Of a DNA stretch of 36,008 bases, positions 9,586 through 25,495 are shown piece by piece. How positions within the stretch are numbered: the stretch's first letter is position 1; the number at the start of each line of letters is the position of its first letter. Origin of the DNA: a virus; IMG/VR virus record IMGVR_UViG_3300030107_003528, positions 1-36,008 of that record. The stretch is one strand, 5' to 3'. Made by a program: the position numbers and the translations under genes. The notes beneath the pieces were generated by a model. That model was not told the DNA's origin and ran no database searches. It was given only the letters and a program-made list of their open reading frames with translations.

Positions 9586-9667
9586 AGTTGGAAAGAAACA
9601 TTACCCATATACCAAGAAGGGGAAGGCGGCGGCTAAGAAAGCCGCCAAGAAAATGAAAAGGAGATAG
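9578..9667 (+). CDS. 29-residue Lys-rich basic protein
   Basis: A GTG start overlaps the preceding stop region by 8 bases. The peptide begins MPKVGKKHYPYTKKGK and continues with AAAKKAAKKMKRR; nearly half the residues are Lys or Arg. Similar very short 'KVGKKHxPYTKKG' peptides are, from memory, recurrent in phage structural regions, but their function is unknown; DNA binding is a reasonable guess from charge. An AGGAG lies 11 bases upstream, a long spacing. Confidence 0.6.
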   Translation: MPKVGKKHYPYTKKGKAAAKKAAKKMKRR

Positions 9668-9668
9668 C

Positions 9669-10638: not shown

Positions 10639-10777
10639 CTTCACTCCTCAGTACTAATAAATGTTTCCAATGTTCTTCTGCTTCTGACCACTGATTATCA
10701 TGCCACGCCTGCCTAAATAGCTGACTGTGTCTAGCAATGGCCTTTCTTAGTTCTTGTAAGGCTTCATTCGTGCCCAT
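10604..10777 (-). CDS. 57-residue helical protein, overlapping the polymerase gene end
   Basis: Begins MGTNEALQELRKAIARHSQL and continues with an amphipathic, Trp/Glu-rich helix (WSEAEEHWKHLLVLRSEDDR). The ATG lies inside the last codons of the polymerase gene (31-base overlap) and the stop lies 35 bases inside the next gene. GGAGGT about ten bases upstream is a plausible SD. The coherent helical pattern and snug placement in an otherwise uncovered gap support a real gene. Function unknown. Confidence 0.6.
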   Translation of the reverse strand: MGTNEALQELRKAIARHSQLFRQAWHDNQWSEAEEHWKHLLVLRSEDDRITGRKNNS

Positions 10778-13095: not shown

Positions 13096-13294
13096 ATTTT
13101 TCTCCTTCAACAGTTTCTATTATCATGTTGTCAATGGACGCAGAGGGCCAAACAAAACTGGTGTGCCTGTCGGCATCCTCTGGGTTGTGCTGTACTATGC
13201 TGAGAAATCCGGGGAGACCTATCGGGTCTAGGAGTTCAACATCCTCCAGCTTGATAAGTTCCCCATCTCCCTTCAGCTTTAAGACGACAATCAA
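13055..13294 (-). CDS. Hypothetical 79-residue protein
   Basis: The start is a TTG inside the TGA stop of the SSB-like gene (TTGA overlap), suggesting re-initiation. Its 3' end overlaps the polymerase start by about 40 bases. The sequence (MIVVLKLKGDGELIKLEDVELLD...) is beta-rich and resembles a small phage replication accessory protein, but I do not recognise a family. No strong SD is seen. Confidence 0.55.
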   Translation of the reverse strand: MIVVLKLKGDGELIKLEDVELLDPIGLPGFLSIVQHNPEDADRHTSFVWPSASIDNMIIETVEGEKFEHTDTPRWFKQL

Positions 13295-13845
13295 ACAGCG
13301 ACGGCGTCAGCCGCACCGATGGCATCGTCATAAGCACCTGCATACAGGTTAACAAAGTCTCCAGTCTTAGAATACTTTATTGTCCCTGTGATTAGTTGAC
13401 CGACCAGCATTGCGCCAACGGCCTCCATAATCTCGCTAACCTCATTAGGGTCGTCAGTACTTTCTAAGGCACTGATTGCCTCATTAAGACTTTCGCCTAC
13501 TTCTTGGTCACTGGTTGGGCTCTCCTCTAGAGACTTGAGGTAGCCATGGAGCCTGCTCTTAGTCATGTTTCGGATAGTCCTTGTGCGCTCCTCGACAGGC
13601 TTAGGAGACTCTGATGTCTCACTAGCAAACCAACCTAAGAACTCTGTGTGGAACCGTCCAACCGAGCCGTTTCTTTTAGCGGCTATTGTTTTGTGCCCAA
13701 GCCTAAGCCTTGGCAATCCATTACTATCGAATACTTCTCCGTCAGTAATCTCCAGTATGTATGTGTCTTCTGGTATCCGTGTGGCCTTTTGAGCCTCTTC
13801 CTCTCTTGCCTGATATTCTACCATATTCTCAGAATTAAACGGCAT
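13291..13845 (-). CDS. SSB-like / DUF669-type protein next to the RecA-fold ATPase
   Basis: 184 residues. AGGAG lies six bases before the ATG, which directly follows the stop of the ATPase gene. The N-terminal pattern (IPEDTYILEITDGEVFDSNGLPRLRLGHKTI...GRFHTEFLGWF) looks like the OB-fold-like beginning of DUF669 proteins, which are often found beside Sak4-like ATPases and thought to bind single-stranded DNA. The C-terminal half is acidic and helical, as in SSB tails. The identification is from pattern and neighbourhood, so only moderate. Confidence 0.55.
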   Translation of the reverse strand: MPFNSENMVEYQAREEEAQKATRIPEDTYILEITDGEVFDSNGLPRLRLGHKTIAAKRNGSVGRFHTEFLGWFASETSESPKPVEERTRTIRNMTKSRLHGYLKSLEESPTSDQEVGESLNEAISALESTDDPNEVSEIMEAVGAMLVGQLITGTIKYSKTGDFVNLYAGAYDDAIGAADAVAV

Positions 13846-14664
13846 TTACTTCTCCTCTTTTACTTGTTGCCCGACTATATTATTAATAACCTCCTCAACA
13901 TCTGTCCACATGGCGTTCTCCATAGTCGGTGGCTGGTCTAGCCATAAGTGGGCAAATATATTTTTAGTCCAATAGTCTCCTCCGCCAAGCCAGTGGGACA
14001 CGTGAGTGGGGGTTTTAATTGCCTTACCACCTACCATTCTCGTCTTCACGTCTTGGTCAAGGTACACCACCATGTTAAAGTAATGCCCCATATTGTGACG
14101 AGCCCATCCTTCCATTGACGGATAGTATTTAAACTCATCCATCCAGTCGGGGTCGCCCTTAACGGTGCTACCTCTCGCAGTAGTATTACCTCTCCTAAGT
14201 TCCGCTACTCGTGCCGTACCAATCACGTTGGCGTTGAGAGACTTGGGGTGAAGCAGTTGCATAAAGTTTATGAACGCTCTCTGCCATTCCCTGTATACCT
14301 CAAACTGGTCACGAGGGTCATTGGACTCTCGATAAGCATAGGTAAAGTCGTAGCATAGTTCGGTAAAGCCGTCTATTACTATGTCAGTTACCCCTGCCTC
14401 TTGTCCCTTTGGGCTGTTCAGAGCCTTGAGGTATGCCTCAAAGTCTTTCGCAAACTTAATCGGGTCATTCTGTGGCAGTGGGAAGCGTACAATATTCTCT
14501 TCGGGTATACCGAGAGCATCGTTCTCCTCTCTGCCTATCAACAGTAGCCTGCCATTCTTACCGGGCACAGGCTCTCTTTTCATGTAGTCCCAGAATGCAG
14601 ACACCCCTAAAGATGTCTTACCTACTCCGGGCCCACCATATAACAAGGTACTAATGTGCAACAT
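13846..14664 (-). CDS. Sak4-like RecA-fold ATPase (AAA_24), recombination/replication
   Basis: 272 residues from the ATG at 14664, with AGGAGG three to four bases upstream; an in-frame ATG at 14676 is possible. Walker A is GGPGVGKTS near residues 10-18. Walker B is probably VTDIVIDGFTEL around 91-102. A Thr/Arg stretch follows (NVIGTARVAELRRGNTT). This is the phage AAA_24/Sak4 family of RecA-like single-strand annealing proteins. It sits directly between an Fe-S nuclease and an SSB-like gene, a standard phage recombination module. The gene overlaps its upstream neighbour by 14 bases. Confidence 0.8.
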   Translation of the reverse strand: MLHISTLLYGGPGVGKTSLGVSAFWDYMKREPVPGKNGRLLLIGREENDALGIPEENIVRFPLPQNDPIKFAKDFEAYLKALNSPKGQEAGVTDIVIDGFTELCYDFTYAYRESNDPRDQFEVYREWQRAFINFMQLLHPKSLNANVIGTARVAELRRGNTTARGSTVKGDPDWMDEFKYYPSMEGWARHNMGHYFNMVVYLDQDVKTRMVGGKAIKTPTHVSHWLGGGDYWTKNIFAHLWLDQPPTMENAMWTDVEEVINNIVGQQVKEEK

Positions 14665-15427
14665 ATTCCTCCTCATAGTACTTCTCTTCTATAATTCCAT
14701 CAACGTCAGCACCAGTCAGCCACCCACGACAGAGTTGCTGGTAGTCACACCAGTTACATAGCGGTGTGAAGTGGTGAGTTGGCGCTTCAGTCTCACGGAC
14801 ACTGTTCGCTAATCTTACCATATCTCGCCCGGCGTTGTCAATAGCATTTTGTGAAATTAAAATTTCATTTCCTTCCATCGGGTCATCCTGTGTACTCCAC
14901 AGTATATGCTGACGGTAGAATGGTTGCCCTTCCAGCCAGTCATATGACTGCTGAAGGAGCCACGCATATCTAACAGGCTGAATGCCCCACTCCTCGTAGT
15001 TGAGCAGTTTCTTTTTAACACCTGTACCTTTCTCGCTACAGGTCTTGAACTCATATATCACAACACCGTAATCGGTCACTGTCCATAGGTCTGGCTTGCC
15101 CACGTATGTGATGCCATCAATGTCAAGTTCTAATTTATCTTCAGCGACAGGTATCTTAACGTCGAGCAACCACTTAGGCACTCTGTCAATCATCCTCATC
15201 ACTCCGGGTTTAAACCTATTGCCATCTTCAAGCAATCCATCTGCATAATCATAGGCATCTTTTAATTTGCCTGTCATTACAGCACGTTCCATTGCGTCGT
15301 GGAATGTAGTACCGGAGGTCAGTGGCCCACTCGGAGTATAGCCATACTCCTTGAGTCTCCTACCCCTGTATGTGTATTTCATTTGACACTCTTGCCAGTT
15401 GTCGAGTGCCGTTACGCTAGTCCGCAT
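14651..15427 (-). CDS. Cas4/RecB-like PD-(D/E)XK nuclease with Fe-S cluster motif
   Basis: 258 residues. N-terminal SVTALDNWQECQMKY carries the first cluster Cys (Cys14). The nuclease core follows: GTTFHDAMERA (helix with His43), GKPDLW (Asp), VIYEFKT (E-x-K) and a QPVRYAWLL motif IV. The C-terminal CNWCDYQQLC supplies the other three Cys. This is the order found in Cas4 and AddB-type exonucleases. No cas1/cas2 genes or repeats are near, so it is a phage recombination/replication exonuclease rather than CRISPR adaptation. GGAG lies eight bases before the ATG; overlap with the ERCC4 gene is 11 bases. Confidence 0.88.
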   Translation of the reverse strand: MRTSVTALDNWQECQMKYTYRGRRLKEYGYTPSGPLTSGTTFHDAMERAVMTGKLKDAYDYADGLLEDGNRFKPGVMRMIDRVPKWLLDVKIPVAEDKLELDIDGITYVGKPDLWTVTDYGVVIYEFKTCSEKGTGVKKKLLNYEEWGIQPVRYAWLLQQSYDWLEGQPFYRQHILWSTQDDPMEGNEILISQNAIDNAGRDMVRLANSVRETEAPTHHFTPLCNWCDYQQLCRGWLTGADVDGIIEEKYYEEEYVAH

Positions 15428-16136
15428 TTAATAATTCTCCCAGTGTTTTCCGCTGTCCTACGTGTAGTCCAGCCTCTTTCCATCCATCCTCGTTGTCCTC
15501 AAGTAACGCTCTCACGTCACCCTCATAATATTCCTCTAACTTTACTGAGGCAGTTGGCCCAACTCCGTCTATAAGTCTACGGACTAATTTGCGGAACGGA
15601 CTACTGTCCTGTATTCTTTTATAGTCATCACCTGCAATTATACTTAGCAGATGGTGACCGGGTTGCATGACATTCTTAATCCTCTTCAGCGTTGACAGCA
15701 CTTGCTGGTCAGCCGCAGGAATTAATATAGTATTACCACGCAAGTCCCATTTCAATAACTCTACGATTAAGTTTAGGTTGTTAAGTTGCCACCAATCAGG
15801 CGAGAACTGTGCTTTAGAGCGTCCCTTATCAGTGAATCTAAGTCCAAGAATGGGGATACTAACAGCACCTTCAAGCCTTCTGAGTTGTCTCTGCAGTCGC
15901 CTGCTTCGTAAACTATTACAGAGGTCATGAGCCTTTTTCTCCTCAATTCCGACAGTGTGTCCGCCATTGGTGACGAATACATAGTCTCCTTCTTTAAGTT
16001 TTGCGACGGTGAAACCTTTCTTACTGGATTTTCTGATATACCCAGCAACGTCCTGACGCCCATCCACGTAAATATCATCTTTGCTCCCTAAACTCTTGCC
16101 GTCGTACAGTAACTCCTCCTTCTCTACTGTGTACAA
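15417..16136 (-). CDS. ERCC4-domain nuclease with C-terminal helix-hairpin-helix
   Basis: 239 residues from TTG, five bases after AGAGGAG. The N-terminal half contains GDYVFVTNGGHTVGIEEKK then DLCNSLRSRRLQRQLRRL, the XPF/ERCC4 nuclease layout (GD...V...ERKxxxD, here EEKKAHD; the usual ERK Arg is Lys). Near residues 190-215, LIDGVGPTASVKLEEYY is a helix-hairpin-helix DNA-binding element. Such proteins cut branched DNA, for example at replication or recombination intermediates. It is followed by the Cas4-like exonuclease in the same operon. Confidence 0.85.
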   Translation of the reverse strand: MYTVEKEELLYDGKSLGSKDDIYVDGRQDVAGYIRKSSKKGFTVAKLKEGDYVFVTNGGHTVGIEEKKAHDLCNSLRSRRLQRQLRRLEGAVSIPILGLRFTDKGRSKAQFSPDWWQLNNLNLIVELLKWDLRGNTILIPAADQQVLSTLKRIKNVMQPGHHLLSIIAGDDYKRIQDSSPFRKLVRRLIDGVGPTASVKLEEYYEGDVRALLEDNEDGWKEAGLHVGQRKTLGELLNAD

Positions 16137-16165
16137 TATTGCTCCTCTTTATTTTGCGCCGTTTC

Positions 16166-16360
16166 TCAATCTTCATATCTCGGCGCTCCCATTTCTTCAT
16201 ATCTATGCTCCATGAATCTATCGTAACATCCCAAGCATATGGTCTGCCATCCATCCTCTAGCATATGCACCTGTGTGCGCTCGTCAAGTGCCATGCCGTT
16301 CTTACAGGCAAAGCACTTATTCCCATTTATCTGCCACTCCAAATCCTCTTGAAACTGCAT
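16166..16360 (-). CDS. Small zinc-finger protein (two CxxC pairs)
   Basis: 64 residues from the ATG at 16360; an in-frame GTG at 16369 is the alternative. CFAC near residue 16-19 and CLGC near 43-46 are separated by 23 residues, a treble-clef/zinc-ribbon-like spacing, with a His-rich acidic C-terminus. It could bind nucleic acid or a host protein. It overlaps neither the next gene (29-base gap) nor the replication ATPase. Confidence 0.65.
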   Translation of the reverse strand: MQFQEDLEWQINGNKCFACKNGMALDERTQVHMLEDGWQTICLGCYDRFMEHRYEEMGAPRYED

Positions 16361-16361
16361 T

Positions 16362-16526
16362 CTACTCACCCTCTAGGAGTTTCATTCCGAGGGCAATTAC
16401 GCCACCAGTACAACCAGTGACGATAGCGATGAATTCCGGGTTGTTTGCTTGAATAGCAAGCACACTCACTACCCCCAGCACACCCAGTGCAACTATTATC
16501 TGCGGTCTTATCTTTCCTAATCCCAT
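16362..16526 (-). CDS. 54-residue two-helix membrane protein
   Basis: Begins MGLGKIRPQIIVALGVLGVV with one hydrophobic helix (about 9-25), a polar turn (QANNPEF) and a second helix (about 32-49, IAIVTGCTGGVIALGMKLL), ending LEGE. Its ATG overlaps the stop of the helicase gene by one base (TAATG). It lies in a replication operon rather than a lysis cassette. It may tether replication proteins or act late as a holin; neither is shown. Confidence 0.65.
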   Translation of the reverse strand: MGLGKIRPQIIVALGVLGVVSVLAIQANNPEFIAIVTGCTGGVIALGMKLLEGE

Positions 16527-17473
16527 TATTCTACCAGCCTATACATTCTAGTTTTATTATCCTCCATCAACTCGTAGGTAATTTCCCCCTTAGCCACTAA
16601 GGTTTTACGGAGGTCATTAGCCTTATTATATTTCATACCTGCCTCCTCTAGCAGTGCTTTGTCTATGTCTCCTAATGTCCTCGGCCCAATCGACAGTAGT
16701 CGTCGGACAATCGTCGCCGGGTCTTCATCAGACACTTGGAGTATACCATTTTTTTGACTGAAGTGCAACCATCGGTCTTCGGGCTTTTCGTTGTGCCTGA
16801 CCTTTTGCCACTGTAGCTGTGCTTGAGCCCTCTTAGGAGAGTGCAAGTGTATTATACTGTCAGCCCAGCCTTCCAGTCCTGACCATCCACGTAGGTTCTG
16901 CGCTCCTGAGTATGACGTACCGTCACCTCGCCACGTAGTCTTCCTACCGTGATGTACCATCACCACACCAGAGTTAGTATCGGTAGAGAGTACGTCCATT
17001 CTATCGAGCCACGCTCTCACGTGGGCATCATCAACCTCACTGCCACCAAGCAATTGGGATAGTGGGTCTAGGAATATAAACTCTATCTTGTTCTCTAGTA
17101 TTGCCTCGGTGAGTTCTTCCCATTGTGTTTCAGACTTGAGTGTGAGGTCTCGTGCATAGTAATAGAACGTATTGTCTGCATGTCCATACTCAGCCCTCGT
17201 ACTTAATCCTCTTGACTGCATCATCTTGGGCACAATCTCACCCTGTAGGTATAGTGTACGTGCCTTGGCTTTCATCTCGTAGCCTAGCCAGTCTATACCA
17301 TTCGCCATAGCACGACACAACTGCATCGTGGCAAATGACTTGTAAGAGCCCGGCTGTCCATAGATTATCACTCTGCCTTGAGGAACAATCAGGTTCTCAC
17401 CTAGTATTGACGGCACTTCTGGTATGTCAGAGTCCAGAAAGTCGTCAAATTTTATTATTTTTATTGGATTCAT
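16526..17473 (-). CDS. RepA/AAA_25-like hexameric helicase ATPase with C-terminal winged helix
   Basis: 315 residues; AAGGAGG is three to four bases before the ATG. Walker A is GQPGSYKSF (about 39-47) after a VIIYG strand. Walker B is EFIFLDPLSQL (about 131-141), followed by VVMVHHGRK (about 170-178, the RepA/DnaB-like H motif). The last ~65 residues (TIVRRLLSIGPRTLGDIDKALLEE...) look like a winged helix-turn-helix. This RecA-fold family includes RSF1010 RepA helicase and phage replicative helicases. No separate primase is seen in the window. Confidence 0.8.
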   Translation of the reverse strand: MNPIKIIKFDDFLDSDIPEVPSILGENLIVPQGRVIIYGQPGSYKSFATMQLCRAMANGIDWLGYEMKAKARTLYLQGEIVPKMMQSRGLSTRAEYGHADNTFYYYARDLTLKSETQWEELTEAILENKIEFIFLDPLSQLLGGSEVDDAHVRAWLDRMDVLSTDTNSGVVMVHHGRKTTWRGDGTSYSGAQNLRGWSGLEGWADSIIHLHSPKRAQAQLQWQKVRHNEKPEDRWLHFSQKNGILQVSDEDPATIVRRLLSIGPRTLGDIDKALLEEAGMKYNKANDLRKTLVAKGEITYELMEDNKTRMYRLVE

Positions 17474-17570
17474 AATCCTCCTTGTATTCGTGGTATCCGC
17501 AAATAGGACAGACTAATTCGCCGTACCAATCTTCGTATAATTTTCCGCAACCGTTTTTACAGACATTCAC
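17445..17570 (-). CDS. 41-residue zinc-ribbon protein
   Basis: Taken from the GTG at 17570 (MNVCKNGCGKLYEDWYGEL...). A longer frame exists to 17639, but that part overlaps the Cys-rich gene in another frame and looks non-coding. CKNGC and CPICG give a C-x3-C / C-x2-C zinc ribbon with a Lys/Asn-rich tail (ESNKNNKI). It overlaps the helicase start by 29 bases. No clear SD precedes the GTG. Confidence 0.55.
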   Translation of the reverse strand: MNVCKNGCGKLYEDWYGELVCPICGYHEYKEDYESNKNNKI

Positions 17571-17706
17571 AATTGCAATTCTCGTTACAGTTGTCACATT
17601 CACACCAGCTTGTTCGTATGCAATTCTCCATGCAGTCACAACCTACGCTACTACAAAAGCACGGCTCTTCAGTCCAACCATGCGTGTCACAGTAGTAGTC
17701 AGTCAC
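17557..17706 (-). CDS. 49-residue Cys-rich, metallothionein-like peptide
   Basis: GTG start four bases after GGAGGGG. The peptide begins MTDYYCDTHGWTEEPCFC and ends CNENCNCECL. It has 12 cysteines in 49 residues (about 24%), in CxC and CxxC clusters, with acidic and Asn residues and few hydrophobics. This composition is like a metallothionein or other metal-cluster peptide, but I do not recognise a family. It overlaps the membrane peptide upstream (8 bases) and the zinc ribbon downstream (14 bases), typical of this operon. The many in-frame Cys codons are unlikely in a chance frame. Confidence 0.6.
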   Translation of the reverse strand: MTDYYCDTHGWTEEPCFCSSVGCDCMENCIRTSWCECDNCNENCNCECL

Positions 17707-17800
17707 GACCCCTCCACACTCTACAGCCAACCACACCTACCGCTAGTAGTATGCAAATATTTATTATTAATTGTAAATCAAATTCTATAGGTTCTAGCAT
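17699..17800 (-). CDS. 33-residue single-helix membrane peptide
   Basis: Begins MLEPIEFDLQLIINICILLA and continues VGVVGCRVWRGRD: a short acidic head, one transmembrane helix (about 10-26) and a basic tail. The ATG is directly downstream of the TAG of the preceding gene with GGAGA about five bases upstream. The stop overlaps the Cys-rich peptide gene. Function unknown; possibly a membrane-acting early effector. Confidence 0.5.
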   Translation of the reverse strand: MLEPIEFDLQLIINICILLAVGVVGCRVWRGRD

Positions 17801-18178
17801 CTATTCTCCATTTAGGTAGTTGTTCTTAGCCCACGTGTCAAGCTCAGTATACTCATTGCGTTGGGCACTCTCATTAAATAGGTATCTGCTCAGGCCATAC
17901 ATTTCCTTAGCACACTTAGCACAGATATTCACATTCTTGTGGTGTCCAAAGTCATGGTATTGTGGCACTCTCATCACTACTCTGCGTTTGCTACACGCAA
18001 CGCACTCATCTTTGTCACGCCAGTGATACTCAGTATCGCCTATAACAATACCTGCATCCTTGGCATCTTCTATCATGGCAGTATGCTCAGCCCTCTGCTC
18101 AGGGCTGAAGACAGCCACCTTGCCGTCATTATATTTTGCCCTGCCGAACACGGCTGATAACATGTCAATTAAACTCAT
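17801..18178 (-). CDS. Hypothetical protein with two CxxC pairs
   Basis: 125 residues from the ATG at 18178, which has AGGAG about seven bases upstream and overlaps the previous stop (ATGA). A longer frame to 18226 would invade that gene. CVACSKRR (about 59-62) and CAKCAKEMYG (about 85-88), with His residues between (QYHDFGHHKN), form a likely zinc site. The N-terminal part is helical (MSLIDMLSAVFGRAKY). Function not recognised. Confidence 0.65.
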   Translation of the reverse strand: MSLIDMLSAVFGRAKYNDGKVAVFSPEQRAEHTAMIEDAKDAGIVIGDTEYHWRDKDECVACSKRRVVMRVPQYHDFGHHKNVNICAKCAKEMYGLSRYLFNESAQRNEYTELDTWAKNNYLNGE

Positions 18179-18444
18179 TCTGTCTCCTCTTCGCTCTTTA
18201 CGGTATCCCAATACTCTTGCTCGCACTCTTCGTAGAACCTTTTTACATTACCACGCATATTAGCGTAGGTCTCCATAACCGTTCTTGTACCACTCATCCA
18301 CCTCAAAGGGTCTTGCTTATCGAACCACGCCTCAAGTCTGATGATATTACTTACATCAAGTGCGGTTCGTATTTCATAGAGTAGCTGACGTGTGCTAGCT
18401 AGCCCATCTTCAATATCAATACTTATGTCAAATTTTTCACCCAT
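18175..18444 (-). CDS. Small acidic helical protein, unknown function
   Basis: 89 residues; AGGAG six bases before the ATG. The sequence (FDISIDIEDGLASTRQLLYEIRTALDVSN...) is largely helical with an acidic end (KSEEETE). No domain recognised. It is one of a run of short genes joined by 4- to 10-base overlaps at the front of the leftward operon. Confidence 0.6.
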   Translation of the reverse strand: MGEKFDISIDIEDGLASTRQLLYEIRTALDVSNIIRLEAWFDKQDPLRWMSGTRTVMETYANMRGNVKRFYEECEQEYWDTVKSEEETE

Positions 18445-18454
18445 ACTCTCTCCT

Positions 18455-18649
18455 CTAAATCATTCCTAGTATATATGCGTCTATTGTTTTTGGCTTCTCA
18501 TCAAGTTCTAGGTCATATGGTTCTCCTCCCTCCGAGAATCGTTGTTTAGCTTCTTCTATGGCTGACTCCTCGTCATCAGCCTCCACAGTATAACTCAAGT
18601 ATGCTGGTGTTGTCAAGGTCACGTGCCAGTCTCTAGTATTTTCACTCAT
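18455..18649 (-). CDS. Small acidic protein, paralogue-like to its neighbour
   Basis: 64 residues with GAGGT six bases upstream; the ATG overlaps the previous stop. The pattern (WHVTLTTPAYLSYTVEADDEESAIEEAKQRF) is a beta-beta-alpha unit with a 'V-A-D-EE-A' helix start. This is common in tiny phage proteins and recalls the next gene upstream (TIKGTFVERVYDSTCPAEAVIMAMDRL). Function unknown. Confidence 0.6.
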   Translation of the reverse strand: MSENTRDWHVTLTTPAYLSYTVEADDEESAIEEAKQRFSEGGEPYDLELDEKPKTIDAYILGMI

Positions 18650-18833
18650 CGTCTACCTCTCTAGCACACACTATTTCTACTTCTCTTGCTTCAGTAATCC
18701 TTATAGGATTATACTCCAACCTATCCATAGCCATAATTACAGCCTCAGCCGGACATGTTGAGTCATATACTCTTTCTACAAATGTCCCTTTGATAGTGTA
18801 TGCTACATCAAAAGTTTTTAATTTTCTACTCAT
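18642..18833 (-). CDS. Small beta-beta-alpha protein, unknown function
   Basis: 63 residues (MSRKLKTFDVAYTIKGTFVE...). AAAGGAC lies about ten bases before the ATG, somewhat far. The fold pattern resembles the following gene, suggesting an old duplication. Overlaps both neighbours by 8 bases. Confidence 0.6.
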   Translation of the reverse strand: MSRKLKTFDVAYTIKGTFVERVYDSTCPAEAVIMAMDRLEYNPIRITEAREVEIVCAREVDDE

Positions 18834-19005
18834 AGTCTATGTCCTTTGATTTTTCAACATCTTCAGTGTATTCTCCTATGTCTAATCGCAGACTGTCTAG
18901 TGTGTACGTATTGTTAATCAAGGCTCTTAGTAGGTCGAGCAAGTCACCATATGTGTCTTGGTCAAAATACTCTTCTACTTCCTCGTATGTATATACTCTA
19001 ATCAT
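18826..19005 (-). CDS. 59-residue acidic helical protein
   Basis: Begins MIRVYTYEEVEEYFDQDTYG and ends EKSKDIDYE. GGAGGG about six bases before the ATG supports the start, and both ends overlap neighbours by 8 bases. Highly acidic; a small host-interacting protein is possible, but no motif is recognised. Confidence 0.65.
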   Translation of the reverse strand: MIRVYTYEEVEEYFDQDTYGDLLDLLRALINNTYTLDSLRLDIGEYTEDVEKSKDIDYE

Positions 19006-19159
19006 CTATGCCCTCCTCATGTGTCCATATTGCGATAACCTCTGCTAAGTCTCTGTACGACCAACTACCATTAAGTACTCTAATAAGAATACTAGGTGCA
19101 TCGTCTACCCCATCCCACCACTTCTCTACATCTACTTCTTGTATCTCACTTATCAACAT
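18998..19159 (-). CDS. 53-residue hypothetical protein
   Basis: Begins MLISEIQEVDVEKWWDGVDD, then APSILIRVLNGSWSYRDLAE and a short helix. GGGAG lies six bases before the ATG, which directly follows the previous stop. Acidic and Trp-rich. Not recognised. Confidence 0.65.
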   Translation of the reverse strand: MLISEIQEVDVEKWWDGVDDAPSILIRVLNGSWSYRDLAEVIAIWTHEEGIDD

Positions 19160-19390
19160 TTATTTCTCCCTATCTGTACCTATCCAATCTATTGTGCCCC
19201 CATCCTCGTTCAGCTTATTAACAGACCATACTCTATACTCCTTAAACTCTACTTCATCAATCAAATCATGCGGTATCTGCTCTAACTCACCCAGCTTGGT
19301 AACCCTCTCATATACTTCTACCATACTGTCACCCTCAATATACTCAATGCAATCCATCACAATCTGGAAGTGTACAGCAAACCTAGTCAA
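19160..19390 (-). CDS. 76-residue hypothetical protein
   Basis: The TTG at 19390, seven bases after AAGGAG, is preferred to an in-frame TTG at 19396 that nearly touches the SD. Sequence MTRFAVHFQIVMDCIEYIEG then a helical acidic stretch and an EFKEYRVWSVNKL strand. Overlaps the upstream gene by 8 bases. Not recognised. Confidence 0.6.
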   Translation of the reverse strand: MTRFAVHFQIVMDCIEYIEGDSMVEVYERVTKLGELEQIPHDLIDEVEFKEYRVWSVNKLNEDGGTIDWIGTDREK

Positions 19391-19838
19391 TCTCAAACTC
19401 CTTTAAGAACATATCAACATGTACCCACGCATCATCATAGTCACCGGCATCATTGGCATTAATCATGGCGTTGGCGTAGTAGCGCAGGGCATGCCCCAGT
19501 TCACTATCTCTATCCTCCACATCACCTACATCGAACAAGGACACATCTTCAATCCACGAGTCACCAAAGTAATACTCTTGTATTCTTTCAGAGCCAAAGT
19601 CTCTAACTACCCAGTCTAAATCATATGCAAGTGAGTCTGGGAAAGGAAATGATTCTCTTCTCATACCCTTCCACTCATTATCATAGCGTAGGAAGTAGTG
19701 GCATAATGCGCCACCTACACAGAAGTCAGAAGTCTTTTGGTTTCTGCCTACCCTACCCTTATACAATTCTCTAATAACCAACGCCAAGTCACTATCCTCG
19801 GTAACAGCAGGTGCTTCTCCACGCATATCACTACTCAT
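19383..19838 (-). CDS. Hypothetical acidic protein, 151 residues
   Basis: The ATG at 19838 (MSSDMRGEAPAVTEDSDL) follows GGAGG by seven bases and overlaps the previous stop; a longer frame to 19916 runs through the neighbouring gene and is rejected. Rich in aromatic and acidic residues (DFCVGGALCHYFLRYDNEW, DSWIEDVSLFD, HALRYYANAMINANDAGDYD). No motif recognised. Confidence 0.6.
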   Translation of the reverse strand: MSSDMRGEAPAVTEDSDLALVIRELYKGRVGRNQKTSDFCVGGALCHYFLRYDNEWKGMRRESFPFPDSLAYDLDWVVRDFGSERIQEYYFGDSWIEDVSLFDVGDVEDRDSELGHALRYYANAMINANDAGDYDDAWVHVDMFLKEFEID

Positions 19839-20199
19839 TGTCTTGCCTCCAACTAAACTTGATATTCTTGTTTGCTTCCTCGGGCTCGGCGGTGACGAGC
19901 AGAGCATCACCGGCAATCTCTAGCAAGACTGCCTCCTGACCCTGCTCTAGAAGCATGTAGGCGAGGCTCATCATACCCTCGTCTAGATTGTGACCAACCC
20001 ACGTGAGTATGTGAACCTCCTCCTCCACAACCTCATGGCTACTGTTTAACCAAACACCTGTACCAATAACAGCAGTCACACCACCTGCCTCTGCAATAAT
20101 ACTATTCACTGCCTCATTCACCTCATCAGTCATGGCATCGCAGGGAACCCATGCCTTATACTCAACTCCTATCATCTCAACATTATACTTGACTGACAT
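19831..20199 (-). CDS. Hypothetical acidic protein, 122 residues
   Basis: Begins MSVKYNVEMIGVEYKAWVPCDAMTDEVNEAVNS. GGAGGG lies about eight bases upstream. The first half alternates strands and helices, and a Met/Leu helix (EGMMSLAYMLLEQG) follows. Overlaps its upstream neighbour by 17 bases. Not recognised. Confidence 0.6.
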   Translation of the reverse strand: MSVKYNVEMIGVEYKAWVPCDAMTDEVNEAVNSIIAEAGGVTAVIGTGVWLNSSHEVVEEEVHILTWVGHNLDEGMMSLAYMLLEQGQEAVLLEIAGDALLVTAEPEEANKNIKFSWRQDNE

Positions 20200-20371
20200 G
20201 TATTATACCCTCCTCGTCTGCATGCTCCTCTAAGAACCGGAGCAATGGTTGTATTTCCTCTAGGATGGTGACAGCAGGCGTCACGTTAGGATACATGCTG
20301 TTCAACTCATCAATGGCTAGGTTAATAAATGGTATCCAGCTAGGGAATATCTTGTTGTTGTTTATTGCCAC
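20183..20371 (-). CDS. 62-residue hypothetical protein (GTG start)
   Basis: GTG at 20371 is five bases after a perfect AGGAGGT and overlaps the stop of the first operon gene by 10 bases. The sequence (MAINNNKIFPSWIPFINLAIDELN...EEIQPLLRFLEEHADEEG) is helical with acidic ends. Function unknown. Confidence 0.65.
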   Translation of the reverse strand: MAINNNKIFPSWIPFINLAIDELNSMYPNVTPAVTILEEIQPLLRFLEEHADEEGIIHVSQV

Positions 20372-20541
20372 ACTGCACCTCCTGACACCAATACCTCACT
20401 AACAGTTATTATATCCTGCTCCTCCACAAACCCTTTTGATGCTTGCTCCCTCAAGAACTCCTCTACTGCCTGTAAGTCATACAGGTCACTGTCATACTGC
20501 CCCTCTAGGTATACGTCTGCTGTGTAGTCTCTCCAAGTCAT
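20362..20541 (-). CDS. 59-residue acidic protein, first gene of the leftward operon
   Basis: Begins MTWRDYTADVYLEGQYDSDL and continues YDLQAVEEFLREQASKGF, ending GGAVWQ. AAAGGAGG lies about five bases before the ATG at 20541, the best SD in the operon. It is first after the candidate promoter at 20575-20604. Acidic and helical; no family recognised. Confidence 0.65.
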   Translation of the reverse strand: MTWRDYTADVYLEGQYDSDLYDLQAVEEFLREQASKGFVEEQDIITVSEVLVSGGAVWQ

Positions 20542-20574
20542 GCTTGCCTCCTTTCGGCGTTTGATTAGGTGTCC

Positions 20575-20604
20575 ATCTTACTACCGAACCGCCAACGCCG
20601 TCAA
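20575..20604 (-). promoter_or_regulatory. Candidate promoter for the leftward replication operon
   Basis: On the minus strand, TTGACG (20604-20599; 5 of 6 to -35) is followed after 18 bases by TAAGAT (20580-20575; 4 of 6 to -10). A transcript would start near 20568 and leave a leader of about 27 bases carrying the strong SD of the first gene. The ATTCATGAAT palindrome lies just upstream. Confidence 0.4.
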
Positions 20605-20615
20605 CCCCCCATTCG

Positions 20616-20625
20616 ATTCATGAAT
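20616..20625. repeat. Palindromic site ATTCATGAAT, left copy
   Basis: A perfect 10-base palindrome that recurs as the core of the longer palindrome at 20875-20896. It lies about 11 bases upstream of the leftward -35 box, a position suited to an operator. Confidence 0.5.
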
Positions 20626-20765
20626 TTTAGTTCAGTATTGTGTTCTGCTCGCCGATATGGTATCTTGTACAGGCATTGAAACTATTTAGTCGTGGAGGCG
20701 TAAAAGTATTATGAAAGTGACTACCCATACAGGCACGAAACCATATAAACTATTTCCATTTCCAG

Positions 20766-20790
20766 CTATATATACACTAAGTATATATAG
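20766..20790. repeat. Perfect 10-bp inverted repeat with 5-base loop
   Basis: CTATATATAC (20766-20775) and GTATATATAG (20781-20790) are exact reverse complements around ACTAA. It could be a protein-binding dyad or an easily melted AT-rich element of an origin. Confidence 0.6.
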
Positions 20791-20794
20791 AGAG

Positions 20795-20844
20795 GCTACG
20801 CTACTGTCACACTGGCACACGCTACGCTATAATCTCACTGGCAC
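20795..20844 (+). repeat. Tandem 24-bp direct repeat with 26-bp period
   Basis: Two copies (20795-20818, 20821-20844) share GCTACGCTA on the left and CACTGGCAC on the right; only the central six bases differ (CTGTCA versus TAATCT). The two centres coincide with the -35 and -10 boxes of a candidate rightward promoter. This suggests paired operator sites or iterons. Confidence 0.65.
20804..20833 (+). promoter_or_regulatory. Candidate rightward early promoter within the tandem repeat
   Basis: CTGTCA (20804-20809), an 18-base spacer, and a perfect TATAAT (20828-20833). The transcript would start near 20840, about 210 bases before the first small rightward gene, and would carry the 22-bp palindrome at 20875-20896 in its leader. 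Confidence 0.4.
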
Positions 20845-20874
20845 TGAGACCCCCTCGGCGGAAAAAATATTTCC

Positions 20875-20896
20875 ATTGGAATTCATGAATTCCAAT
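20875..20896. repeat. Perfect 22-bp palindrome
   Basis: ATTGGAATTCA is followed directly by its exact reverse complement, centred between 20885 and 20886; a partial third copy (AATTCATG) follows at 20894-20901. The core ATTCATGAAT is shared with 20616-20625. As DNA it is a likely repressor-binding site; as RNA it would make a loopless hairpin. Confidence 0.65.
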
Positions 20897-21048
20897 TCAT
20901 GCTTTCGCAACCAAAACTAAACGCAAAAAATAGCTCCTGGACTTTTGGACATTTTTTTATACTTTTTTAAAACATATGTGTTACAATCACGAGGTCAAAT
21001 CTACGCCATGGAGTAAAACCGGCAATGACAAAATTACAGGAGAAAACA

Positions 21049-21327
21049 ATGGACGATAAATTATTTTGTAATTTGTGCGGAAGTAAAATTGAGGCGGAAC
21101 ACGGCGGAGCGTGGACACTAGGGCACAACCCCGAACCACTAATCAGCCATCCCGATGACCGGTGCTGTAGGGCATGCAATGACACGTATGTTTTCCAAGC
21201 TAGGTTGTATGATTCAACGTCACATTTAAACAAGGCACAGATAGCAATAGCAATAGATTTTATAAGGAGTACGAATGGCGTCAAAAGCATTTACAGCAAA
21301 AGTAATCATAAACAAATTTTCGGCTAA
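21049..21327 (+). CDS. Small zinc-finger protein, first rightward early gene
   Basis: 92 residues from the ATG at 21049, five bases after AGGAGA; an in-frame ATG at 21025 has no SD. It begins MDDKLFCNLCGSKIEAEHGG; a CNLC pair and a CCRAC cluster about 34 residues later, with His residues between, form a probable zinc site. The C-terminal part is basic. First gene after the control region, so perhaps an early host-interaction or regulatory protein. Overlaps the next gene by 53 bases. Confidence 0.65.
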   Translation: MDDKLFCNLCGSKIEAEHGGAWTLGHNPEPLISHPDDRCCRACNDTYVFQARLYDSTSHLNKAQIAIAIDFIRSTNGVKSIYSKSNHKQIFG

Positions 21328-21469
21328 AGGAGACTTAGTACAAATTGAAGCCGACAATCCCAGAACAGACGGCATTAAGCCAACATGGTTTGAGCTGGAG
21401 AAAGTAGAGCAGAAGTGTGGCAAATTGTCTGAAGGGCAAAAGCTAACATTGTCACTTAGTGCGGATTGA
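21275..21469 (+). CDS. 64-residue basic beta-rich protein
   Basis: AAGGAG lies about six bases before the ATG. The sequence (MASKAFTAKVIINKFSAKGD...) contains a strand-rich N-terminus and a helical ELEKVEQKCG segment. It overlaps the previous gene in another frame. It might be a small OB-like or RNA-binding protein, but no family is recognised. Confidence 0.55.
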   Translation: MASKAFTAKVIINKFSAKGDLVQIEADNPRTDGIKPTWFELEKVEQKCGKLSEGQKLTLSLSAD

Positions 21470-21539
21470 TGACTTTGTGGCTTACCTGTGTGCTATTGCT
21501 ATGTCGATTGCTGTATGGTTAGCCAACAAAAGAAAATAA
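21459..21539 (+). CDS. 26-residue membrane peptide (tentative)
   Basis: A GTG-started frame overlapping the previous stop gives MRIDDFVAYLCAIAMSIAVW then LANKRK: a short acidic head, one hydrophobic helix and a basic tail, as in small phage membrane peptides. No SD is seen and the start codon is uncertain, so this is only a candidate. Confidence 0.3.
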   Translation: MRIDDFVAYLCAIAMSIAVWLANKRK

Positions 21540-21604
21540 CCTGTGGGCGTTTTGGTTGCTGTTGAGTATGCGACCGATTGTAAGTCCCACTAAAGGATTT
21601 TAAA

Positions 21605-21844
21605 ATGTCAACGTGGTTCGTTAAAACTGGCGGGGTGATAACCGGAAAAGCTATTCCATTATATAGACTGCATGTTCTGAGGAAAGGAATCTATTTGGAA
21701 GGTAAGGGTCTCAAACTCAGTAGAGGAAGAAGTTGTTTAGCGATAGTTAAAAAAGAATTTGGTTGGAAAGGTAATAGAGAAAAAATCTTAGGGATGCTCA
21801 ATGCGGAAATTGACAGGAGAGAAGAAGACAATGCACAAGCATAA
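21605..21844 (+). CDS. 79-residue basic protein, unknown function
   Basis: AAAGGA about seven bases before the ATG supports the start. MSTWFVKTGGVITGKAIPLY is followed by a Lys/Arg-rich middle and an acidic helical end (MLNAEIDRREEDNAQA). The basic core (KLSRGRSCLAIVKKEFGWKG) could contact nucleic acid. Its end overlaps a tiny zinc-finger gene by 14 bases. Confidence 0.6.
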   Translation: MSTWFVKTGGVITGKAIPLYRLHVLRKGIYLEGKGLKLSRGRSCLAIVKKEFGWKGNREKILGMLNAEIDRREEDNAQA

Positions 21845-21965
21845 ATTTATTGAATGTATTATCCCGAATTGTAACGTCAGGAAATCAGCTAATTATAGAC
21901 ACCAACATTGTAGTCAAAATTGCATAGCTATTCGCCGAATAGTCATGCCATATAAGGAGAGCTAA
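21831..21965 (+). CDS. 44-residue zinc-finger peptide
   Basis: Begins MHKHKFIECIIPNCNVRKSA and continues NYRHQHCSQNCIAIRR. Cys9, Cys14 (C-x4-C), His/Cys (HQHC) and Cys-x3-Cys spacing resemble a compact zinc finger such as an FCS/MYM type. An AGGAGA lies about 12 bases upstream, closer AGAAGA purines nearer. Its TAA directly precedes the next ATG. Confidence 0.55.
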   Translation: MHKHKFIECIIPNCNVRKSANYRHQHCSQNCIAIRRIVMPYKES

Positions 21966-22229
21966 ATGGATTTATACTGTCAGATTTGCGGAGAACCAAT
22001 GGAACATTATCATGTTGTTCATGATATGGAATCCAGCGAACGTGCTATATTCCTTGCCGGTTTGGGATGCTTTCATTGTCACGGTGAAATTCCAGCCGGT
22101 GGTAAACCTGAGATAGCAGAGATAATGACAATGGCAATGGACACTATCGGACTCCACGATTTGGACGGCGTGGCATCCATGATGGAAGATTATAGTTATG
22201 TAGATAATTATGATGGTGGACAATGGTAA
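21966..22229 (+). CDS. 87-residue zinc-ribbon-like protein
   Basis: AAGGAG lies seven bases before the ATG. CQICGEPM (residues 5-8) and CFHCHGE (about 36-39) form two CxxC pairs. The C-terminal half is acidic and Met-rich (IAEIMTMAMDTIGLHDLDGVASMMED). A small early effector or regulator is likely, target unknown. It overlaps the next gene by 7 bases. Confidence 0.65.
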   Translation: MDLYCQICGEPMEHYHVVHDMESSERAIFLAGLGCFHCHGEIPAGGKPEIAEIMTMAMDTIGLHDLDGVASMMEDYSYVDNYDGGQW

Positions 22230-22492
22230 GACAACGTGACCAGTACAAACCAACTACGGCAATATCAAATAACGTCAAACTAGATAAAAAGGTATGGGAT
22301 AGAATCATGGAAGAATCAAGGTTCGGCAAATGGTCAATTCAAAATAGAAAGAAGACTACATTTAAACCTGATAAATCTACCTGTAAACATATGATGGTAA
22401 TTTCGGATGAAACTGGACTAAATACCCATTGCGTTTACTGTGGATATGCACGATACTCCTACAAATCAAAACCACTCAGGAGTAGCCAATGA
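22223..22492 (+). CDS. 89-residue basic protein with C-terminal zinc site
   Basis: MVRQRDQYKPTTAISNNVKL begins a basic N-terminus; near residues 54-78, CKH...HCVYCGY gives a C-x-H / H-C-x2-C zinc site; the tail is basic. The TGA stop overlaps the ATG of the following micro-gene, which also shows that TGA is used as a stop in this genome. Confidence 0.6.
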   Translation: MVRQRDQYKPTTAISNNVKLDKKVWDRIMEESRFGKWSIQNRKKTTFKPDKSTCKHMMVISDETGLNTHCVYCGYARYSYKSKPLRSSQ

Positions 22493-22554
22493 AGATTAAG
22501 AGTTTGAGGTTTAAAGTTTGGATGGGCACAATCAAAGTATATTACAGGAGTTAA
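22489..22554 (+). CDS. 21-residue basic micro-peptide (tentative)
   Basis: AGGAG is six bases before an ATG that overlaps the previous TGA; the peptide MKIKSLRFKVWMGTIKVYYR ends with one further residue. It is basic and amphipathic. The exact SD and stop/start overlap argue for translation; the small size keeps it tentative. Confidence 0.4.
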   Translation: MKIKSLRFKVWMGTIKVYYRS

Positions 22555-22555
22555 T

Positions 22556-22822
22556 ATGATAGCTAAAAAAGAATTTGAAGCCATTGCCGAATTACTCAAT
22601 GAACATGCGTTCGATAGGTATGAGCAGAGATTAAATGACGGCGTATTCTATATATGTTTGGATTTCTCGCATTTATTCGCTTCAATGAATCCCAACTTTG
22701 ACCATAATAAGTTTATGAATGCTTGCGGATTTACTGACGATAGAATCGAGGAATGGATGCAGGAGCGAAGGTCGGAAAGATACCCAACAGCAGAATCATT
22801 CGATAGGAGTGTAAGACGATGA
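22556..22822 (+). CDS. 88-residue hypothetical protein
   Basis: AGGAG is five bases before the ATG. The protein (MIAKKEFEAIAELLNEHAFD...FMNACGFTDDRIEEWMQERR) is helical and charged and resembles short phage regulators of unknown role. Its stop overlaps the next ATG (ATGA). Confidence 0.65.
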   Translation: MIAKKEFEAIAELLNEHAFDRYEQRLNDGVFYICLDFSHLFASMNPNFDHNKFMNACGFTDDRIEEWMQERRSERYPTAESFDRSVRR

Positions 22823-23280
22823 TAGTTAATAACCAAAATCAGAAGTGGGAAACCCACGAAGTGGCACTATGTCACGTATGGAATTGCGACCGGCTATTAA
22901 GGCTTGACCAATGCCACACTTACGTAAAACCTGAATGGTTCGGTAGTCCTTGGGCCCATGGTCTGGACGTTGTTGCCATATGCGCTCATCACATAATCGG
23001 CAAGGATGAAAGGATTGAAGTATTGAATGATAAACCTCTGTCGTCCGCAGTGTTGGAAGTAGTGCAACAAATATTCCCCGAATACCCATTACCTGAGCCG
23101 GTGCAACACTTCAATGATAAAGAGTTAGAGAAGTTAGAGCCACGAGTACAGGACAAAGGGGAACTAAAAGATTTCGTGTTCAAGCATGAAGTAATTGATG
23201 CTAATGATTTCTTATATCAGGAGTGGCTAATGGATATTAATGAAGGCTCACCACATAGGCACATAGGGGGGGCAACTTAG
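22819..23280 (+). CDS. Hypothetical 153-residue protein with N-terminal Cys/His site
   Basis: The N-terminal third has CHVWNC, CHTY and CAHH, a likely zinc-binding site. The rest is acidic and helical (LSSAVLEVVQQIFPEYPLP; NDKELEKLEPRVQDKG). The Cys/His pattern recalls a zinc finger more than an HNH nuclease; no H-N-H core is evident. It is the last gene before the strong terminator at 23334, so the last of the rightward early unit. Confidence 0.65.
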   Translation: MIVNNQNQKWETHEVALCHVWNCDRLLRLDQCHTYVKPEWFGSPWAHGLDVVAICAHHIIGKDERIEVLNDKPLSSAVLEVVQQIFPEYPLPEPVQHFNDKELEKLEPRVQDKGELKDFVFKHEVIDANDFLYQEWLMDINEGSPHRHIGGAT

Positions 23281-23333
23281 ATACAAATAAAATAATACTG
23301 TGTAATAGAGTGCTTTGGCTATTGCACTTCCTA

Positions 23334-23373
23334 GCCTCTACAGGTTCGATGATTGCCTGTAGGGGCTTTTTTT
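23334..23373 (+). terminator. Strong rho-independent terminator of the early unit
   Basis: GCCTCTACAGG (23334-23344) pairs with CCTGTAGGGGC (23356-23366): 11 pairs with one T-G wobble and an 11-base loop, followed by seven T residues (23367-23373). Confidence 0.9.
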
Positions 23374-23435
23374 GTGCCCTACTAAAAAGAGGGCTAAACA
23401 TGCACCCCAGTTGAAACCCTATAGTCCTATCGTAT

Positions 23436-23501
23436 GGAAAGGAGCATTTCGGGTATAGAGGGGCTTCGTGATTAGCCCTACACAATCACTGGAGCCTTTC
23501 C
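23436..23501 (+). ncRNA. Pseudoknot-forming segment, candidate structured RNA
   Basis: GGGCT (23461-23465) pairs with AGCCC (23474-23478). The loop sequence GTGATT (23468-23473) can also pair with AATCAC (23484-23489), giving an H-type pseudoknot. An outer stem GGAAAGG (23436-23442) with CCTTTCC (23495-23501) closes it. Whether it is transcribed is unknown, since it lies after a terminator and before the next promoter. Confidence 0.35.
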
Positions 23502-23512
23502 TCACACAAATT

Positions 23513-23556
23513 CTTGAATATTGAGGCTTTTCCCCTAAATTTTATTAATATTCAAG
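23513..23556. repeat. 10-bp inverted repeat around a C/T-rich loop
   Basis: CTTGAATATT (23513-23522) and AATATTCAAG (23547-23556) are perfect reverse complements separated by 24 bases. Related TTGAAAT and TTGAATAT words follow to about 23590. Confidence 0.5.
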
Positions 23557-23722
23557 CATAAAAGGGGCTCTTGAAATTTTGAATATAATCAAGTTCGGAC
23601 ATACCCTTATATATAAGAAACGTGAGGCCAGTTACCTGACCCCACGCCGAGGAGGAGTGGTGCTTATGCACCGGGAGGGTGTCAATTAAGACACACTTAA
23701 TTATAGCACGGCTGGGCAGGGG

Positions 23723-23751
23723 TTGTCAAGAAGTAATAAATATGGTATAAT
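23723..23751 (+). promoter_or_regulatory. Consensus promoter for the packaging/structural genes, leaderless start
   Basis: TTGTCA (23723-23728), a 17-base spacer, and TATAAT (23746-23751) with an extended -10 TGG. The small-terminase ATG at 23758 lies six bases after the -10 box, just where transcription should begin, and no SD precedes it. Confidence 0.7.
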
Positions 23752-23757
23752 TGTTGT

Positions 23758-24126
23758 ATGGGAAAACATGGTGGGGCTCGGCAAGGCGCTGGGCGTCCTA
23801 AAAAAGCAGACATCGCTAAGGGAGAAGTGGTTGCACAAAAGTTGCAGACCGCATTCCAAGTTGGCCTTGAAGAGATAGGTACTAGTTTACCTGAGCTTAT
23901 TCGGGCCAGCGTAGATAGTGCCTTGAGTGACGCCAAGGATGCCGGGGCAGACCGCCGCTTTCTCATTAAGCTATTTTCTGAAATGGTTAAGATTACTGAA
24001 GACGATAAGACCCCTTATGCGCAATTGATGCAACAGTGGGTACAGCAGGTGAATGTTAATGTGGACAGAGAAGGCGACAGACGTACTGAAGTTATTGAAT
24101 CTGGAGTTGTCTCCAGAGCAAACTGA
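23758..24126 (+). CDS. terS: Terminase small subunit
   Basis: 122 residues. The N-terminus KHGGARQGAGRPKKADIAKG is the basic 'GGARxGAGRPKK' AT-hook-like motif common at the start of phage small terminases. The rest is helical (LPELIRASVDSALSDAKDAGADRRFLIKLF) and suits an oligomerising DNA-recognition subunit. It directly precedes, and overlaps by 68 bases, the large terminase. The ATG has no SD but sits at the expected transcription start, suggesting leaderless translation. The pac/cos site it recognises may lie in the structured region upstream. Confidence 0.8.
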   Translation: MGKHGGARQGAGRPKKADIAKGEVVAQKLQTAFQVGLEEIGTSLPELIRASVDSALSDAKDAGADRRFLIKLFSEMVKITEDDKTPYAQLMQQWVQQVNVNVDREGDRRTEVIESGVVSRAN

Positions 24127-25495
24127 TGTACTATATCATCCTAGCCGACTTAAAGTAATTGGTGGTGGTGAGGGTGCAGGCAAGTCTTTCCTCGGTGCGC
24201 TGACCGGCGTAATACGAGGTATTGTTGATGCCCACGAAAATGGCTATGATGAAGACCTACTATACTGGGTGGTTGGCGCAGACTTTGAAGATGCCCGAAA
24301 AGAGTTAGAATATATCCATGAGTGGTTAGATGAGTTGGGGTTGGTAGATAACTCTAAGACATCTATCTCGACGCACAAAGACCAGAAGTGTATTTTGACA
24401 ACAACGATAGGAGCAGTCTTTGAAACAGTATCTGGATATGACCCTAAGAAGATTGGGCGAGAACAGCCACAAGGTATTATCGGGTGTGAAATCAGTCGTT
24501 GGCCCAAGGAAGTTTGGGATAGGTGTTACGGACGTCTTGCAAGACGCTATCACCGAGGCTCTTGGGGGTTTTTCTCCGGGTCGTTTGAGACTTCGGAAGG
24601 GTGGTTCCCAGAAGTGTGGGAGATGGGACAATCTGGTAATGAGTTGGATGTTACCAGCTACTCACTCCCGGCATGGGCGAATCTCGCAATATATCCACTT
24701 GGTGAGAACGACCCAGCTATCGACCAGCTTCGGGCACAAACAACTGAGCCAAGGTTTATGGCAAGGTATGGCGGTAAACCCCACCCACCTATAGATAGCG
24801 TATTTCCAGAATTTAAACACGTAATACACGTTGACCCGAAAGTGGAGTTTGACCCATCGGAGTCAACATACATATTCATAGACCCCGGAGACCTAGTGTA
24901 TGCCTGTGAGTTTATACAGTTCAAGGATGATGAGGTTTGGGTGGTAGATGAATTATATGTGTCTCATTGGACACACGAGCAGGTAATGCAGGGCGTACAG
25001 TTAAAGCCTGCATGGAATAACATTAAAGACGGAGTGATGGACATTGCAGGAACGCAACACCATATGGGACTTGGTAGCGCCTTTGAAGCGTGGAATAGAG
25101 ACACTGGTCTCCAGATGCACGTCAACAAATGGCCCATCGACGCCGAGCTTGAGCGATTGCGCTCGGTACTCTCTATTAACCCTAACACTGGTCGGCCTCG
25201 CTTGCGTATTAGCCCCAAGTGTCAAGGGCTCATTGCGGAAATGGGCGGAGGTACAGCACCAGTCGCAAACATTGGACGATGGAAGATAAGGAATGGAAAA
25301 CCGGAAACTCGCAATGACCATGCGTGTAAAGCGTTGTCTTATGGCTTACTTGAGAAATTTGGGACAACGAGAATTGATGATAGAACCACTGTAACTGCAA
25401 ATAGCTACTTGCGGCCCGGCGGCGGCAATGATAGTATTTATGACAGTGTGCTATGGCATAACCGTGAAGGAGTGAATCCGTGGCAAATAACCTAG
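24059..25495 (+). CDS. terL: Terminase large subunit (ATPase and nuclease)
   Basis: 478 residues from the ATG at 24059, seven bases after AGGTG (an ATG at 24053 almost touches that SD). Walker A is GGEGAGKS (residues 36-43). Walker B is likely QGIIGCEISRW (IIGCE with catalytic Glu). The C-terminal RNase-H-like nuclease shows acidic residues in YIFIDPGD, VMDIAGTQHH and RNDHACKALSYGLLE. It pumps DNA into the prohead and cuts concatemers with TerS. Followed by the portal gene with a 16-base overlap. Confidence 0.93.
   Translation: MWTEKATDVLKLLNLELSPEQTDVLYHPSRLKVIGGGEGAGKSFLGALTGVIRGIVDAHENGYDEDLLYWVVGADFEDARKELEYIHEWLDELGLVDNSKTSISTHKDQKCILTTTIGAVFETVSGYDPKKIGREQPQGIIGCEISRWPKEVWDRCYGRLARRYHRGSWGFFSGSFETSEGWFPEVWEMGQSGNELDVTSYSLPAWANLAIYPLGENDPAIDQLRAQTTEPRFMARYGGKPHPPIDSVFPEFKHVIHVDPKVEFDPSESTYIFIDPGDLVYACEFIQFKDDEVWVVDELYVSHWTHEQVMQGVQLKPAWNNIKDGVMDIAGTQHHMGLGSAFEAWNRDTGLQMHVNKWPIDAELERLRSVLSINPNTGRPRLRISPKCQGLIAEMGGGTAPVANIGRWKIRNGKPETRNDHACKALSYGLLEKFGTTRIDDRTTVTANSYLRPGGGNDSIYDSVLWHNREGVNPWQIT

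Follow-up and report, generated by a model that had tools for sequence, protein, structure and literature searches.

The interval upstream of the terminase genes in an uncultured marine phage very probably encodes a functional RNA of about 79 nt on the minus strand (23694-23616), and this small RNA (sRNA) probably, though with considerable doubt, acts in trans as an anti-Shine-Dalgarno (anti-SD) RNA that masks ribosome-binding sites (RBSs), a role suggested by analogy with bacterial sRNAs. The DNA analyzed, hereafter the window, is an IMG/VR virus record of 36,008 bases, and positions are given in whole-window numbering. A preliminary description of 23374-23722 had presented this interval as a structured, untranslated stretch lying between an intrinsic terminator and the promoter of the small terminase gene (terS), and had suggested that it holds either a pac or cos packaging site or an independent small RNA. 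Our analysis confirmed that the interval is non-coding and that it lies where described, and places within it the following features.

about 23334-23373, plus strand: intrinsic terminator (hairpin and T-run, read by eye) for the plus-strand genes upstream
23503-23593, no strand assigned: AT-rich DNA element with TTGAAT-type repeats, alignable in 13/13 sequences
23694-23616, minus strand: small RNA of about 79 nt, supported by its fold, a covariance model and covariation, with the fold present in 13/13 homologues
23694-23690/23683-23679, minus strand: P1 hairpin of the small RNA (from the fold)
23678-23673, minus strand: linker CCUCCC (from the fold)
23672-23668/23663-23659, minus strand: P2 hairpin (from the fold)
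23658-23649, minus strand: seed ACUCCUCCUC, single-stranded, between P2 and P3 (from the fold)
23648-23636/23631-23619, minus strand: P3 terminator-like hairpin, followed by UCUU (from the fold)
23646-23663, minus strand: 18-nt block GCACCACUCCUCCUCGGC, identical in 13/13 sequences and including the anti-SD stretch, which is single-stranded
23729-23700, minus strand: small-RNA promoter, TTGACA-18-TATAAT with TGn before the -10 box (extended -10), 12/12 consensus
23723-23751, plus strand: terS promoter, TTGTCA-17-TATAAT with TGn, kept in 13/13 sequences
23758-24126, plus strand: terS (small terminase), an open reading frame (ORF) with aligned homologues
24053-25495, plus strand: terL, large terminase subunit (PHROG 2, E 2.4e-18)

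Genomic Context and Distribution

The product of 23758-24126 has no significant PHROGs or Pfam family, and was named terS from its position and from a GGARxGAGRPK N-terminal motif. The terminator at 23334-23373 is missing from the output of the terminator scan because its loop exceeds the length limit of that scan. Known phages contain terL and polymerase relatives that, among the matches listed, are only about 23-27% identical. The polymerase (10747-13110, minus strand) is a family A DNA polymerase with an N-terminal uracil-DNA glycosylase-like domain. Elsewhere in the window, residues 219-358 of a tail-fibre-like protein (335-3304) are repeated at 64% identity just upstream (131-460), a repeat also present in the long record G001.

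A scan with terL recovered 14 contigs at 87-95% identity, 12 of which reach upstream of terS, while L013 and L014 begin inside terL. The DNA pattern for the small-RNA core found the same 12 contigs. Contigs were partly recruited via the GCACCACUCCUCCUCGGC block, and the terL scan, which is independent of the block, returns the same 12. A looser pattern yielded one extra contig (L032), which scored 21 bits with the small-RNA model and was taken as coding sequence, and a terL profile search, built from nine terL proteins with L007 left out (stop), added no new contigs. The intergenic match to the window is confined to 23492-23757, and to mainly 23626-23755 in more distant relatives; a blastn search with 23281-23491 against 14 relatives gave no match, and a blastn search of 50,697 phage records with the intergenic region was also negative. 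Rfam gave no matches in the window at gathering score, ar14 (RF02344) included, and a permissive search of 23200-23900 (E up to 5) again lacked ar14 and returned only a spurious human lncRNA model. Three exact-pattern matches in a collection of cellular genomes scored 17-18 bits, versus 88-101 bits for true members, and were taken as chance, as was a 27.9-bit match in one of the three genomes that overlaps long ORFs in sequence of 76% GC.

Fold, Strand, and Invariant Seed of the Small RNA

The architecture is common to all 13 sequences, namely the window and the 12 contigs, and comprises P1, a C-rich linker, P2, ACUCCUCCUC, a long P3 (up to 13 pairs across the set), and a U-rich tail, with P1 beginning within a few bases of the -10 box in every case. 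For the window RNA the folding energy is -36.6 kcal/mol (z -5.4), and none of 200 shuffles folds as well. Structure is present, as had been described, but the strong signal is confined to 23694-23616 on the minus strand; on the plus strand the whole interval folds moderately better than shuffles (z -2.4), and 23374-23603 alone gives z -2.0. The interval has inverted repeats of 19 nt (79% complementarity) and 13 nt (92%). The long inverted repeat noted in the preliminary description does exist, in the AT-rich element, but more distant relatives do not keep its arms.

Comparison of pairing across relatives favors a minus-strand RNA. Among the 11 distinct sequences of the 13, pairing is standard in 257 of 257 pair cells, and both sides have changed at 8 pairs (20 cells); the resulting covariation values were reached by none of 500 shuffles and by no register slide. 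P1 position 4 illustrates the pattern, occurring as UA, CG, AU, and GC among homologues, while P2 is invariant and so receives no covariation support. The covariance model scores 88-101 bits in every family member. G-U pairs occupy 47 of the 257 cells, and their plus-strand equivalents are C-A mismatches that would leave 210 of 257 cells paired; because of these 47 cells, the constraint appears to act on a minus-strand RNA, not on DNA or a plus-strand RNA. A plus-strand RNA was rejected on this asymmetry together with the fold z-scores of the small-RNA stretch (-5.4 for the minus versus -1.5 for the plus strand). A reading frame through the small RNA was likewise rejected: indels fall in loops and linker and not in threes, and since those in the linker and P3 loop are of single bases and break the frames, no reading frame is conserved.

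In the window RNA, the ten seed bases have an unpaired probability of at least 0.98. All 18 columns of GCACCACUCCUCCUCGGC are invariant, versus 1 of 16 fourfold sites in terS. Fourfold sites of terS show a mean pairwise difference of 0.53, its third codon positions are close to saturation, and its longest run of invariant bases is 6 nt. The unpaired, conserved CUCCUCC-type stretch expected of an anti-SD sRNA is present in 13 of 13 sequences. By sequence alone, the locus also has what is expected of a short independent RNA, namely its own promoter (13/13) and a P3/U-run terminator. The earlier suggestion of an independent small RNA is thus well supported, with the revision that the RNA lies on the minus strand, has a promoter of its own, and is confined to the final third of the interval.

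Divergent Promoters and a Predicted Leaderless terS mRNA

The small-RNA promoter, which runs in the opposite direction from the terS promoter and was overlooked in the preliminary description, is the sole 12/12 consensus match within 9500-24200. Upstream of the small RNA, TTGACA-17/18-TATAAT with TGn occurs in 13 of 13 sequences. The -35 box of the terS promoter reads TTGTCA in 9 of 13 sequences and a shifted TTGACC in the other 4. In the window the -35 boxes of the two promoters overlap, and both promoters are kept in all 13 sequences.

The -10 box of the terS promoter is separated from the ATG by 6 nt in 13 of 13 sequences, so that, by usual spacing, transcription would start at the A of the AUG and give a leaderless mRNA. 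Leaderless mRNAs, which start with a 5'-terminal AUG, are common in some bacteria according to a review (PMC9031893). We predict that the terS mRNA is of this kind and thus should escape anti-SD action. A search for leaderless terminase small subunits in the open-licence literature, mostly titles and the beginnings of abstracts, found no description of the small RNA. At the level of sequence comparison, we regard the promoter, fold, invariance, and strand of the small RNA and the promoter-to-AUG spacing as established.

Proposed Mechanism and Candidate Targets

We hypothesize that a strong promoter of its own, divergent from that of terS, drives leftward transcription of the small RNA, and that P3 ends the transcript. 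P1 and P2 would keep the fixed ACUCCUCCUC stretch open, and this stretch could then pair in trans with GAGGAG(G/U)-type Shine-Dalgarno (SD) sequences and block ribosome binding. The targets would probably be early (replication) genes of the phage, host mRNAs, or both, with the leaderless terS mRNA spared from silencing. Anti-SD action is suggested because an unpaired CUCCUCC-type stretch is the working part of LhrC and of the alpha-r14 sRNAs, and we also infer the expression of the RNA, its pairing in trans, its targets, and its timing. A wider proposal, tentative and in our estimate rather unlikely, is a two-part switch in which one side of the divergent promoter supplies an anti-SD RNA to silence SD-led mRNAs of early genes or of the host, and the other side supplies a leaderless terS mRNA that, needing no SD, would continue to be translated as packaging begins.

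The search for candidate targets covered five long records, on which genes were called only roughly, and was restricted to genes that have an SD-like stretch. The RBS matches the seed at 8 bases or more in 7 of 63 early-strand versus 1 of 95 late-strand genes (Fisher 0.007, with orthologues counted repeatedly), a modest bias, and a similar early/late difference is seen with the 16S anti-SD. Such matches are not clearly unusual, as mock seeds reach this number in 121 of 1000 cases; the six 9-base matches are equalled by mock seeds in 8 of 1000. The matches belong to a small number of gene families that recur among the relatives. The 9-nt matches CGAGGAGGA occur in relatives, in the RBSs of two replication genes, AAA_24 and AAA_25, and the AAA_24 match falls in the coding end of the preceding gene.

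Alternative Explanations

The pac or cos site that had been suggested for the position next to terS found no support. Of the 14 terL contigs, twelve extend across the conserved part with no shared end here, long contigs are cut at differing, distant places, and the G-U pairs indicate an RNA and not a DNA site; nothing appears to support a genome end in the interval. That the hairpins matter as DNA, in a pac, cos, or origin signal, is very unlikely, even though the interval adjoins terS and its AT-rich repeat element is kept in 13 of 13 sequences: the 47 G-U cells favor RNA, the contig ends lie elsewhere, and the minimum of the cumulative GC skew is near 21 kb and not 23.5 kb, which leaves an origin here unsupported by GC skew. 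The AT-rich element itself (23503-23593) may be a pac site, for instance one of the headful type, or else an origin or a regulator site. Of the 5 long records, 4 (all but G012) show its TTGAAT-type repeat pattern at this position, and two isolated short matches lie elsewhere, in G001 and G009. Conservation and structure, together with a place beside terS-terL in 13 of 13 sequences, might also fit a packaging RNA akin to phi29 pRNA that works with the neighboring terminase. We find this most improbable, as the most conserved unpaired part is the anti-SD stretch, phi29 pRNA belongs to a different motor type, and terminase contact is without any indication here.

A cis-acting leader, with P3 serving as an attenuator and the seed masking the SD of a small minus-strand gene downstream, would account for the zinc-ribbon-like short ORF (roughly 34-42 aa, minus strand) found downstream of the small RNA in 7 of 13 contigs (L007-L012 and L015) and for the 59-aa membrane-like peptide ORF that replaces it in L002, several of these having an SD. 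Against this, 5 of the 13 contigs, the window included, have no such ORF and yet keep the RNA and its promoter, and the downstream genes are unrelated to one another; three of the peptides gave no Pfam match above cut-off. Because the downstream ORFs are variable or absent, a trans-acting RNA is likelier than a leader, which we consider unlikely. It is also conceivable, if somewhat less probable again, that the minus-strand promoter chiefly interferes with the terS promoter, whose -35 box it overlaps in the window, and that the RNA is a by-product, or that the RNA sponges a G-rich host sRNA or protein, as the known phage sponges AsxR and AgvB might suggest. For a by-product, however, 18 invariant nucleotides and covarying stems are not expected. 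We retain trans-acting masking of RBSs as the preferred reading.

Similar Arrangements in Other Phages

A search of other phages for a promoter followed by CTCCTCCTC gave 33 matches, 12 of them the family itself and 21 others. Eleven of the 21 look like one coding family (MTIYTPPPP...) and were set aside, as were six contigs (L055, L058, L059, L060, L063, and L070) that share one identical leader, in which GGAGGAGA pairs with UCUCCUCC right after a consensus promoter to form an SD/anti-SD hairpin within the leader; this hairpin possibly masks the RBS. In L067 and L074 the motif pairs with a downstream SD-like stretch, and L071 has no terminated hairpin, so these too were rejected. A promising separate case is L056. 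In this contig, from an unrelated phage, a candidate sRNA (5838-5914, minus strand) lies between terL and portal and has a consensus promoter and a terminator hairpin with the loop CCCUCUCCUCCUCCCUC. The hairpin is retained in a relative, L076, where the stem differs but still pairs and the loop is CU-rich. Of 80 terL relatives of L056 kept, 79 have enough flank, and because CTCCTCC follows terL in only 2 of these 79, one being L056 itself (L075), no conserved family is shown for this candidate.

Significance and Comparison With Known RNAs

The small RNA would represent a new structured RNA family, one with no Rfam match, from an uncultured marine phage lineage and with a clear testable seed; its sequence can be tested without the natural host. 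If the proposed action is true, a phage RNA would reshape which mRNAs ribosomes start on, in partnership with a leaderless late gene, and would offer a simple, protein-free account of an early-to-late or host-to-phage shift in translation. The RNA appears to be of a known functional kind, but in a new family and setting. Among phage RNAs encoded beside packaging genes, phi29 pRNA resembles it in this adjacency, while the motor type and structure differ. Searches of the open-licence literature, mostly titles and abstract beginnings, on phage anti-SD sRNAs, terminase-linked sRNAs or structured RNAs, lytic-phage small RNAs, and CCUCCUCCC found no description of the window RNA.

Three bacterial or phage systems offer comparisons. 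LhrC of Listeria monocytogenes has a single-stranded CU-rich stretch predicted to cover the lapB SD, and its CU-rich sites were shown to bind lapB (PMC4132741). It shares with the phage RNA a stem-loop, a single-stranded CU-rich stretch, and a terminator, but LhrC is encoded on the chromosome in several copies and has three CUCCC-type sites, whereas the phage RNA has one copy per phage and one invariant ACUCCUCCUC, and no sequence kinship between the two is shown. The rhizobial alpha-r14 sRNAs, such as NfeR1 and SmelA075, silence mRNAs at the RBS and carry an ultraconserved, unpaired CCUCCUCCC anti-SD motif while their stems drift (PMC10746234, PMC3927594), and the conserved unpaired anti-SD motif is the likeness to the phage RNA. 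Alpha-r14 sRNAs have the motif in each of three hairpins, whereas the phage RNA has it between hairpins P2 and P3; none of the small-RNA loops holds CCUCCUCCC, so the three-hairpin arrangement is absent, and the Rfam ar14 covariance model (RF02344) does not match the small RNA. AsxR and AgvB are phage-encoded sRNA sponges that antagonize the host sRNAs FnrS and GcvB, and the passage that names them (PMC12559287) mentions no anti-SD role. They are nonetheless phage-made small RNAs that act by base pairing, as the window RNA would.
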